Below the pieces are notes generated by a model, which saw nothing but the letters and a program-made list of their open reading frames with translations, was not told where the DNA came from and did not search any database. The translations under genes were made by a program, and so were the position numbers. A stretch of DNA of 64,000 nucleotides, taken from contig JAIFNA010000007.1 of assembly GCA_020048055.1 (NCBI GenBank), positions 62,001-126,000 on the forward strand. The letters are read 5' to 3'. The stretch comes from Arcobacter sp. Lineage in GTDB: Bacteria; Campylobacterota; Campylobacteria; Campylobacterales; Arcobacteraceae. Below are positions 18,344 through 43,009 of the stretch, piece by piece; within the stretch, counting starts at the first letter, position 1; each line of letters begins with the position of its first letter.

Positions 18344-18374
18344 GTTCTGAAAATAGGGACAATTTTAAAGGGGT
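18344..18374 (+). promoter_or_regulatory. nifX leader: hairpin C only of the nif leader family
   Basis: GTTCTGAAAATAGGGAC pairs GTTCT with GGGAC (two G-U pairs), followed by AATTTTAAAGGGG as ribosome site. It has the position and layout of hairpin C seen before other genes of the island, but hairpins A and B are not clear here. It is probably a reduced member of the family. Confidence 0.5.
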
Positions 18375-18380
18375 GTAATT

Positions 18381-18761
18381 ATGGATTCAATAGAAAAAAA
18401 CAATGGCTTTATTCAAGTGGCATTCGCTACAACAAATCTAGAAGATATAGATTCACACTTTGGAAGTGCAAAAAGATTTTATGTTTTTGATGTGACAAAG
18501 GAGCAATATTCAGCTGTAAAAATTGTAGAAATTAAGGAGAAAGATACAGATTTGACAGTCTCATCACTTAAAGGTATAGATATTGTCTACTTTGTTGACA
18601 TTGGACCAGCTGCTGCAGCCAAACTTATCAATAATGGAATTTTCCCTATCAAATACAAAGAGACTGTAAAGATTGAAGATGAGTTGAACAAACTTACTAA
18701 AATGTTAGGTACAAATCCACCTCCATTTATCAAAAAAATAATTGAAAAAAAGGCTGCATAA
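18381..18761 (+). CDS. nifX: FeMo-co carrier protein NifX
   Basis: 126 residues of the NifX/NafY/NifB-C-terminal (Di-nitro_FeMo-Co) fold. Landmarks are 'VAFATTNLEDIDSHFGSAKRFYVFDV', 'IDIVYFVDIGPAAAAKLINNGIFPIKY' and the closing 'GTNPPPFIKKII'. NifX binds NifB-co and the NifEN-bound precursor and passes them on. The His in DSHFGSA is the conserved cofactor-contact residue. It overlaps the next gene as TAATG, and its leader carries hairpin C. Confidence 0.92.
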   Translation: MDSIEKNNGFIQVAFATTNLEDIDSHFGSAKRFYVFDVTKEQYSAVKIVEIKEKDTDLTVSSLKGIDIVYFVDIGPAAAAKLINNGIFPIKYKETVKIEDELNKLTKMLGTNPPPFIKKIIEKKAA

Positions 18762-19180
18762 TGAGTTTATTTATAAGAACACTTATTGGACAAGTAAGAG
18801 CACTCGATCAGTTTGGAACTTGGGCTAATAAAAGTGATGAAGATATTTTAAGAGAAAAATATGTCAAAACAAAAGAGGATATGAAAAATATCCCAGTAAT
18901 TGCCGATATCGATGAGAGACAAATTCAAGATATTAGACTTATTTTTCAAGCTATAGCTTTAGCATTTGAACTAGAAAATGGGATTATGTGTAGTGTTGTG
19001 ATGGAGATGAGTCATGAGGGATTTGGACGAGCAGTGGTTATTGCAGATAAAATTGTAGTCACAAATAAATTTTTTAAAGATGCACACAGATACTCTTTTA
19101 GAACTTATGAAGAGTTGATTGAGCAAGGGGATAAGATGTTGGCTGACGCTCTTAAAATTTATAAAGAATTTAATAAATAA
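18761..19180 (+). CDS. NifX-associated nitrogen fixation protein (DUF269)
   Basis: 139 residues of the DUF269 family, found next to nifX in most nif clusters. Landmarks are 'FIRTLIGQVRALDQFGTW', 'DERQIQDIRLIFQAIALAFE' and 'GFGRAVVIADKIVVTNKFFKDAHRYSF'. No metal-binding motif is visible. The role is unknown but tightly linked to FeMo-co biosynthesis. It is translationally coupled to nifX and followed by nifF after 15 bases. Confidence 0.9.
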   Translation: MSLFIRTLIGQVRALDQFGTWANKSDEDILREKYVKTKEDMKNIPVIADIDERQIQDIRLIFQAIALAFELENGIMCSVVMEMSHEGFGRAVVIADKIVVTNKFFKDAHRYSFRTYEELIEQGDKMLADALKIYKEFNK

Positions 19181-19195
19181 TAAGGAGGCATTTGA

Positions 19196-19714
19196 ATGAA
19201 AATTGGAATCTTTGTGGGAACTGCTGGTGGCACTAGTATGAAAATAGCAAAGGCATTAGCAAAAGAGTTTGATGTTGATAGTGACGATGTTATCAATATG
19301 GAAGATGATTTTGATGATATTGGACAATTTGAAGAGTATGATATTTTATTTTTAGGAAGTTCTACTTGGGGAAAAGGGGAAGTTCATTTCTCTTGGGTTG
19401 ACCCAATTTTAGAGCTTGAAGATGAAAAACCAGATTTGAGTGGGAAAATGGTTGCATTTTTTGGAGCTGGAGATTGTAAAAAACATGGAGAGCATTTTTG
19501 CTCAGCCCTTGGAAAACTTCATAAAACTTTTACTGGACTTGGAACAACTACTATTGGTTTTATGCCAAAAGAGGATTATGAATATGAGTTTTCATTGGCT
19601 GAAATTGATGGTAAGTTTTGTGGACTTGGAATTGATGAGCATAATGAAAAAAGCAAAACAAAAGAACGAATCTCTAATTGGATAGAAGTTCTTAAAAATG
19701 AACTGAAAATTTAA
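19196..19714 (+). CDS. nifF: Flavodoxin (NifF)
   Basis: 172 residues; a long-chain flavodoxin that gives electrons to NifH. The FMN phosphate loop is 'GIFVGTAGGTSMKIA', with G-T-x-G-x-T-x-x-x-A spacing. 'LFLGSSTWGKGEVHFSW' supplies the Trp side of the flavin site, and 'VAFFGAGDCKKHGEHFCSALG' the second flavin loop. The acidic surface typical of flavodoxins is evident. AAGGAGGCATTTGA precedes the ATG. Its place between DUF269 and the PII gene supports a nif-specific role. Confidence 0.92.
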   Translation: MKIGIFVGTAGGTSMKIAKALAKEFDVDSDDVINMEDDFDDIGQFEEYDILFLGSSTWGKGEVHFSWVDPILELEDEKPDLSGKMVAFFGAGDCKKHGEHFCSALGKLHKTFTGLGTTTIGFMPKEDYEYEFSLAEIDGKFCGLGIDEHNEKSKTKERISNWIEVLKNELKI

Positions 19715-41116: not shown

Positions 41117-41119
41117 CAA

Positions 41120-42760
41120 ATGATTTATGATGTAATTGTAGTAGGTGGCGGAATTGCAGGACTTATGGCTGCGATTGAAGCAAAAACAGTAAATAACAAA
41201 GTGGCACTTATCACAAAAGGAAATATTTTTAAATCGAATAGTTCCCTTGCAAGCGGTGGAATCAATGCCGTTTTAAATCCTAATGATGTTGATGAAATCA
41301 AAAAGCATATCAATGATACAGTGGAAAGTGCAAAGGGATTAGAGGATATCAAGTCTATTGTTTATATGTGTAAAAATGGTGGAAGAATCGTAGAGAAGTT
41401 AGCTAGCTATGGTGTTGAGTTTGATAAAAATAAAGATGGTCGGGTAGCTCAAAGAAGTTTTGGTGGTGGAAGTAGCAAACGAACTTGTTATGTTGGAGAC
41501 AAAACAGGTAGTGCCATCACGGCGGTTCTTATAAAAAAAGCCAAAAGCGTAGGTGTTGAGTTTTTGGTGAACAATTTTGTAATGAATATCACAAAATTAC
41601 AAAAAACTGTAAGCGGGGTTGTGAGTATTAGAAGAATTGATAGTTCAATCGTTGTCTATCCAGCAAAAGCAATTATACTTGCTGGTGGTGGATATGCTGG
41701 GATTTATAGAGGATTTTCTACAAATGCGAGTGACTATACAGGAGATATGTTAGCGGTTGCTCTTCGAGCAGGAGTCAATCTTAAAGATATGGAATTTGTA
41801 CAGTTTCATCCAACTGGTATGCCAAAAACAAGTTATCTTGTAAGTGAAGCTGCACGAGGTGAGGGTGGATATCTTCTCAATAGTGATGGGGAAAGATTTG
41901 TAGACGAATTAGGCACAAGGGATGTTGTAAGTCGAGCAATAACACAGCAGATAGAAAATGGAAAAAAGGTTTATATTGATTTAAGACACTTAAGCCGTGA
42001 GTATATTGAATCAAAACTCCCATCGTTATACAAAAGTGCTTATGCTCAAGCTGGAATAGATGTGTGCGAAGAACTTTTGGAGGTAAAGCCAGTAGCACAT
42101 TATACTATGGGCGGGATTGAGTCCAATATGTCAAAAACCTCAATTGAAGGGCTTTTTGTTTGTGGAGAATGTGCAAATAGTGGAGTGCACGGTGCAAATC
42201 GACTTGGTGGAAATTCACTTTTAGAGGGTGCTGTTTTTGGAGAACTAGCTGGAAAAAAAGCTTTAGAATTTTCTAAAAATAGAAAGTTTTTGCCGATTGA
42301 CTATGAGATAGTTGCAAACGATATCAAGATTGTAGATACGATTTTTGGTGGGGAAACTACAAAAAATTTCAATGCTATGAGGATAACATTAGGGAAAACA
42401 ATGTTTGAAGTTTGTGGGATACATAGAGATGAAAAAAAACTTATTCAGGCTTTTGATTATTTAAAATATTTGAGAAAACAGGTGGGAACACTCCATTGTA
42501 TAGATAAAAGTAAAAATAATAATGTAGAACTTATAGCGATACTTGAACTTAAAAATGCCCTTGAAATAGCAGAAGCTGTAGTCCTTGGTGCAACCAAAAG
42601 GAAAGAGAGCCGTGGGGCTCATAGCAGGGATGATTATCCAGAATTGAATCCAAAGATGAATAAATCAATTTTTGTGCATGAGTTTCAAAAAGGATATTTT
42701 AAATTGTGGTTTGAGGAGAATAACCTCCTTAGTAAAATAAGAAGGTATATTATTAGTTAG
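41120..42760 (+). CDS. L-aspartate oxidase/fumarate reductase-type flavoprotein
   Basis: 546 residues. The FAD dinucleotide fold is 'DVIVVGGGIAGLMAAIEA', with the flavinylation-region-like 'SNSSLASGGINAVLN'. Catalytic landmarks of the NadB/SdhA/FrdA family are 'FVQFHPTGM', 'SEAARGEGGYLLN', 'GTRDVVSRAI' (Arg), 'VAHYTMGGI' (His) and 'GANRLGGNSLLEGAVFGE'. A C-terminal helical domain contains 'SRGAHSRDDYPE'. It could be NadB (quinolinate/NAD synthesis) or a fumarate-reducing paralogue. Its place in the nif island suggests specialised use. Confidence 0.8.
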   Translation: MIYDVIVVGGGIAGLMAAIEAKTVNNKVALITKGNIFKSNSSLASGGINAVLNPNDVDEIKKHINDTVESAKGLEDIKSIVYMCKNGGRIVEKLASYGVEFDKNKDGRVAQRSFGGGSSKRTCYVGDKTGSAITAVLIKKAKSVGVEFLVNNFVMNITKLQKTVSGVVSIRRIDSSIVVYPAKAIILAGGGYAGIYRGFSTNASDYTGDMLAVALRAGVNLKDMEFVQFHPTGMPKTSYLVSEAARGEGGYLLNSDGERFVDELGTRDVVSRAITQQIENGKKVYIDLRHLSREYIESKLPSLYKSAYAQAGIDVCEELLEVKPVAHYTMGGIESNMSKTSIEGLFVCGECANSGVHGANRLGGNSLLEGAVFGELAGKKALEFSKNRKFLPIDYEIVANDIKIVDTIFGGETTKNFNAMRITLGKTMFEVCGIHRDEKKLIQAFDYLKYLRKQVGTLHCIDKSKNNNVELIAILELKNALEIAEAVVLGATKRKESRGAHSRDDYPELNPKMNKSIFVHEFQKGYFKLWFEENNLLSKIRRYIIS

Positions 42761-42772
42761 TGGCAAGAAAAG

Positions 42773-42869
42773 AACTTTTATACCCTTTCGCTAAGGCTTC
42801 ACGGTGGGTAACTCGCAATCTTTGATTGCGACCGTTGCGTTGCAGAATCGCTCAATTGATATAAAAGTT
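42773..42869 (+). repeat. 97-base structured inverted-repeat element, copy 2
   Basis: Bounded by AACTTTTATA and TATAAAAGTT. It contains CTAAGGCTTCACGGTGGGTA, an inner hairpin CGCAATC-TTT-GATTGCG, and CGTTGCAGAATCG. The two conserved blocks are identical to those of copy 1 (25995-26092), while the inner and outer stems differ in sequence but remain paired. It lies 12 bases after the NadB-like stop and just before the nifT leader, again in the sense direction. Confidence 0.8.
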
Positions 42870-42887
42870 ATTTGGAAACAAGGAATA

Positions 42888-43009
42888 AGAAAGTAAGAGA
42901 AACTCGTTTCTCTCTTTAGGATTTGCTTCTTTAGATGGAATTATTTCCATCGCTAAAAGAAGACATTAAAAACAAGGTCCCTTCAAATTTGGGACAAATT
43001 TTAAGGAGT
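42888..43009 (+). promoter_or_regulatory. nif leader family copy 6 (before nifT)
   Basis: Hairpin A is AGAGAAAC/GTTTCTCT (42896-42913), and the link is CTTTAGGATTT. Hairpin B is CTTCTTTAG/CTAAAAGAAG with inner GATGGAA/TTCCATC (42926-42962). Hairpin C is GTCCC (42977-42981) with GGGAC (42991-42995), then AAGGAG (43003-43008). From hairpin A to the ribosome site it is nearly identical to the copy after nifH, 6.6 kb away. Confidence 0.82.

Follow-up and report, generated by a model that had tools for sequence, protein, structure and literature searches.

A dispersed, directional intercistronic element in Arcobacteraceae and a proposed two-state gate on translation

The 64,000-nucleotide (nt) stretch of an Arcobacter sp. 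genome analysed here (assembly GCA_020048055.1, contig JAIFNA010000007.1, positions 62,001 to 126,000; hereafter the window) carries nitrogen-fixation (nif) genes, and a structured element recurs in it directly in front of genes, among them those for a [2Fe-2S] ferredoxin, FdxN, NifB and NifT. A preliminary description of the window had reported six structured leaders and one remnant, all of which we confirmed by direct reading (Table 1). The element is roughly 125 nt long. Hairpin A comes first, followed by a conserved CTTTAGGATTTG link, hairpin B in two parts and, on the 3′ side, module C, which closes with the Shine–Dalgarno sequence (SD) of the next gene. The order A–link–B–C–AAGGAG–start codon is complete at five sites and shortened at fdxN, and unpaired nucleotides are conserved in the link and around B. 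Apart from the one behind the weak nifX element, the genes behind the copies had also been thought to lack sigma-54 promoters of their own. This does not hold for fdxN, where the sigma-54-type match GGAACAGTAGTTGC (32857–32870) lies directly 5′ of the element; other matches of this type in the window are at 31451–31464, 35216–35229 and 18293–18307.

We aligned 39 copies by sequence alone, without structural bias, and judged covariation against shuffles and slides. In this alignment 94% of cells paired and 19 of 27 pairs changed on both sides. The covariation score for A, B and the open form of C was 0.463, compared with 0.186 for shuffled and 0.08–0.13 for slid pairings, and 31 copies drawn independently from other genera gave 0.507 against 0.194 for A and open C. 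The stem covariation noted earlier is thus real.

We found two features beyond the preliminary description: an alternative helix that sequesters the SD, and gain and loss of the element between sister species. The second helix pairs the SD with a CC-U-rich arm and is incompatible with the GUCCC/GGGAC hairpin. This closed form of C also covaries (0.224 versus 0.071, and 0.353 versus 0.157 in other genera, where 94% of its arm positions are paired), and swapping arms between copies lowered pairing from 270 to 227 ± 7 (0/2000). Predicted mean energies were −8.4 kcal/mol for the open form, with the SD free, and −8.8 kcal/mol for the closed form, with the SD paired, a difference of −0.4 ± 2.5 kcal/mol (n = 99 copies). 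At 37 °C, the SD was predicted to be free with a probability of 0.26 in the full element and 0.31 in the C module alone, and of 0.59 in the C module once the sequence upstream of it was shuffled. A pseudoknot joining the C loop to the segment that follows B, considered by eye, was set aside, as that segment is not conserved in the nif copies.

Across ten genomes, 103 of 106 copies end directly before an open reading frame (ORF), with mostly 5–10 nt between AGGA and the start codon. A same-strand ORF ends no more than 300 nt upstream in 101 of these 106 copies, at a median of 13 nt from its stop codon to the element, and all 48 loci in four other genomes showed the same position at a gene start. 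Orientation is strict and SD placement exact even where a longer intergenic region is free (luxS, mdh and purD). Because copies are nearly always at gene starts, their placement is not random, and scattering at random between unrelated genes, named beforehand as the finding that would undo the idea of a leader, was not observed. The copies are mostly operon-internal, and the action within operons proposed for them, on processing or translation, is probable.

By contrast, the view that this is a leader family of the nif island failed in a genome-wide covariance-model search: most copies precede unrelated genes, in this genome and in about 80 others. With a first model, built from the six window sites, the 2.0-Mb host genome yielded about 17 strong copies, four sister genomes yielded 6–30 copies each and a fifth yielded one. 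A second model, refined on the 39 copies, matched 81 of the 104 genomes from the host's own family, which we infer to be Arcobacteraceae; outside it, a minority of Campylobacter- and Sulfurospirillum-like genomes gave matches, at much lower scores. Downstream genes, named from their protein starts, include glnB, NifU, lepA, luxS, thrB, der, prs, hslU, purD, mdh, pgk, trpB, carB and leuA; hypA and dnaK are among the others. Copies are also present in sister genomes that lack nif. Six of the 17 host copies fall in the window, which is 3% of the genome (binomial p about 1e-5), so copies are enriched at nif loci without being restricted to them. The nifB leaders of other Campylobacterota did not contain the element (with the product of the gene at 33552, assumed to be nifB, as the NifB query). 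The preliminary description had not recognised the element as a known riboswitch or leader, and it matches no Rfam family: in Rfam, only a tRNA in the window reached the gathering threshold, and at E values up to 1 nothing matched on any element at the six element-bearing loci. One copy had no blastn match in phage and plasmid collections, a weak test for a diverged element.

Presence of the element varies between close relatives. We compared the window with G300, a sister genome of about 85% identical DNA, and found differences in both directions: the site at 20279 is empty in the window and holds a C–A–B–C insertion in G300, and the element stands before nifB and fdxN in the window but not in G300 (Table 1). 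The C–A–B–C arrangement also occurs at loci other than nifB. Among twelve housekeeping genes compared across the genus, pgk, thrB, luxS, prs, der, trpB, purD and mdh gave pairs of occupied and empty orthologues. Empty orthologues (those of pgk, thrB, luxS, der, prs, trpB and others) have a native SD alone where the element sits elsewhere, which places the insertion point between the stop codon and the native SD. Only C remains at trpB of G303 and at pgk of G000. Other sites point to common descent: copies at hypA (in two genera), nifT, prs, thrB, der, sufC and gatC are reciprocal best matches. Overall, the best match was the orthologue for roughly half of the copies at orthologous sites (54% and 38% in the two directions, where 18% would be expected); because some orthologous copies best-match each other and others do not, both descent and turnover have taken place. 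With many dispersed copies and presence/absence variation between close relatives, the element behaves as a small interspersed repeat, and it is probably mobile. A short AAGGA-like repeat flanks it at some sites (thrB, pgk and luxS), which is only suggestive of target duplication, and no terminal inverted repeats were seen in A5/A6.

Table 1. Copies of the element and related sites in the window
Feature	Positions	Strand	Remarks
Full element before [2Fe-2S] ferredoxin gene (ORF from 21566)	21424–21569	+	Fer2 domain; B of the long variant, with CTCAAA..GAG..CAAGCACAGG inserted; SD AAGGAG at 21554–21559
Full element before NifX-like gene (30834–31217, minus)	31215–31396	−	PF02579; 35-nt hairpin nested in C loop (31241–31275); orthologous G300 copy has the same nested hairpin
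Shortened element (reduced B) before fdxN ferredoxin gene (33008)	32911–33010	+	Fer4 domains; none at G300 orthologue
Extra C module (GTCC..GGGATGTTTTAAAGGGG) 5′ of nifB copy, giving C–A–B–C	33403–33440	+	Sequence read
Full element before nifB (33552)	33432–33554	+	None at G300 orthologue, sigma-54-like promoter there instead
Full element between nifH and ORF119 (36341)	36216–36343	+	ORF119 has no Pfam match
Full element before nifT (43015)	42892–43017	+	NifT match; reciprocal best match is the G300 nifT copy
Decayed remnant, C only, before NifX-type gene at 18381	18344–18374	+	Full copy at orthologous G300 position
Empty orthologous site	20266–20278	+	Native SD GAAAGGA right after upstream stop codon; C–A–B–C in G300
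Candidate very decayed copy before ORF at 19864	19764–19866	+	22.8 bits, E 0.38; not claimed as a copy

Other repeats occur near or inside the copies. A second family of dispersed hairpins (GCTTCACGGTGGGTACCCC..GACCCTTCCGTTGCAGAATCG) occurs at 42785–42860 (plus strand), just 5′ of the nifT element, and at about 25990–26066 (minus strand), as well as at L325 and in C46 of G300. Small hairpins are also nested in B or C loops (GGTTCCCTAAAAAA..TTTTTTAGGCACC and CTTCATAGCGTAGTCTTGTGGC..GAAGTGAAGAC), at 31241–31275 in the window and at seven further loci (L167, L171, L227 and L231; L169, L204 and L244), which suggests repeats inserted into repeats.

Parts of the element also appear in other settings. 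Two 16S–23S spacers of G345 (L281 and L287) differ by a C-like palindrome of ~40 bp (GGTCCCTTTAAAAATGCGAATTTTTAAAGGAG) that is present in one and not in the other, an insertion difference within a single genome. In rRNA operons of G065, whose genome is of Sulfurospirillum size (L273, L274, L279 and L285), an A–link–B core lies immediately 5′ of the 16S gene and again in the spacer before the 23S gene. The G065 matches prompted a boxA (rRNA antitermination) reading of the element, which we rejected because the rRNA leaders of Arcobacteraceae lack the A–link–B element; the boxA-like sequence in their 16S leaders is another one (TTCTTTAACAAA in G057). G059, a Campylobacter-like genome of 1.6 Mb, has ~20 A–link–B copies (L266–L272 and L277), most of which lie in intergenic regions rich in repeats and not at gene starts. 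In G155 (L275), an A–link–B copy precedes a phage-tail-like gene and the B stem itself pairs the SD (CTCCTTTA/TAAAAGGAG).

Several known repeats resemble the element in part. REP/BIME palindromes, which are mobilised by Y1 (RAYT) transposases, are likewise dispersed, imperfect intergenic hairpins that are sometimes arrayed. The present element differs in sitting at SDs, and no Y1_Tnp gene was found in G000, G300 or G244, each with 19–28 copies. Mobilisation by a reverse transcriptase was rejected as well, as no RVT_1 domain was found in G000, G300, G334, G244, G217, G324 or G057; both rejections hold at least for genomes without these genes. The BOX, RUP and SPRITE repeats of Streptococcus pneumoniae are similarly small, modular, strongly folded, strain-variable and co-transcribed with their neighbours (PMC3049150). 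All three are over-represented between convergent genes, and BOX and RUP, which possess terminal inverted repeats, were not tied to SD sites (PMC3049150), whereas the present element has a fixed orientation, an SD end and a two-state SD module. A post-transcriptional role has been proposed for the TAACTGA direct repeats of marine Beggiatoaceae, for which the available part of the source does not describe conserved hairpins (PMC4679880). These are the nearest kinds, and neither, as far as the available text of their sources goes, joins a structured directional element to a conserved SD switch. A functional precedent, likened by description, is the RNA thermometer of czcD in Campylobacter jejuni, of the same order, in which an operon-internal hairpin pairs the SD (AGGA) and was shown by experiment to control translation (PMC7592916); it is a single locus with a simple hairpin and no alternative SD-free helix. 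Our literature search did not find the element described. Arcobacter sp. L has been screened for structured RNAs, with most motifs confined to Arcobacter left unnamed in the part of that report available, and the element may coincide with one of these or with its HRC-4 motif (PMC6429828).

We propose that the element is a dispersed, directional intercistronic unit whose bistable C module gates translation of the next gene, and put the probability of this reading at roughly 0.55. The GUCCC/GGGAC fold would leave the SD free, a fold of the CCUUUUAAAAUG-GGA-CAUUUUAAAAGG type would pair it, and the balance of open and closed folds would set downstream translation. Once co-transcribed, the element would shield the downstream gene from ribosomes completing the upstream gene. 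The SD-free hairpin is assumed to be the first to form during transcription, and the SD is assumed to close when ribosomes do not load or through a trans-acting factor. Our preferred guess for its spread, taken from the C–A–B–C arrays, is homologous recombination between C modules. A bolder form of the proposal, in which the element is a mobile translational switch with no enzyme of its own that inserts at operon SDs as a two-state gate on the ribosome-binding site (RBS) and rewires unrelated genes across the family, may be correct, although we lean against it.

Selection on sense-strand RNA is expected to leave more G–U than A–C mismatches. We found ratios of 85:56 overall (p 0.009, with cells that are not independent) and 18:2 in the inner part of B. 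The preliminary description had taken covariation as a sign of selection on RNA structure, and for hairpin B this is reasonably supported. It did not carry over to the helix that closes the SD, in which RNA-level constraint is unproven: its ratio is 24:24, with no wobble asymmetry, and its palindrome could therefore be kept at the DNA level, and may have arisen there or by templated correction. This lack of asymmetry weighs against the gate, as do the absence of an obvious common signal among the downstream genes, the weak temperature response that is predicted, and the solo C modules and A–B cores found in rRNA operons or away from gene starts (the G345 spacer, the G065 16S leader and G059).

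The serious rival is a selfish or neutral small interspersed repeat of the BOX/ERIC/REP kind that inserts widely but survives only between stop codon and SD in tight operons, with its palindromes kept by the mobility process or by templated correction of quasi-palindromes in DNA. We regard it as possible but doubtful. Gains and losses among closely related species, tandem arrays, C–A–B–C duplications, decayed remnants, contig ends inside copies, the insertion in one G345 rRNA spacer and the unbiased SD helix would all fit such a repeat; its strict orientation and exact placement where longer free intergenic regions were available, its deep retention at genes such as hypA, the conservation of both alternative C helices and the G–U bias in B would not. 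Unlikely, too, is a role in mRNA processing and stability, in which A and B would be cut by RNase III, J or Y and the downstream cistron would gain a stable 5′ end and an RBS. The operon-internal position close behind the upstream stop codon and the two strong conserved hairpins are consistent with this, as is the cleavage of transcribed ERIC and Correia elements by RNases (summarized in PMC3049150), but processing alone leaves the conserved SD-sequestering helix unexplained.

Two further readings are far less probable. The unpaired nucleotides conserved in the link and near B, together with a two-state SD switch, recall a metabolite-binding riboswitch or an RNA thermometer. However, the downstream genes share no pathway, and such diverse targets argue against a single metabolite; nothing in Rfam matched; and predicted SD opening was 0.21 at 5 °C and no more than 0.37 at 45 °C, while controls rose at a similar rate, which makes temperature an unlikely general signal. 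We therefore consider either kind of sensor highly improbable. Least probable of all is a set of regulatory leaders peculiar to the nitrogen-fixation island, a view that is refuted as a claim of restriction. The concentration of strong copies in the window and the copies at glnB and NifU elsewhere in the genome speak for a link with nif, but copies also stand before prs, lepA, hslU, thrB, purD, luxS, pgk and other genes, they occur in nif-less sisters, and the element is absent from nifB in other Campylobacterota and from nifB and fdxN in G300.

The proposed gate is directly testable, because sister genomes offer natural occupied and empty pairs for one and the same gene. Bacterial interspersed repeats are usually viewed as promoters, terminators or RNase sites. 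If the gate is real, the element would instead be a dispersible unit of translational control within operons, one that lands on SDs and brings two competing folds with it, and it could account for changed stoichiometry in conserved operons, such as nif and hyp, between close species.

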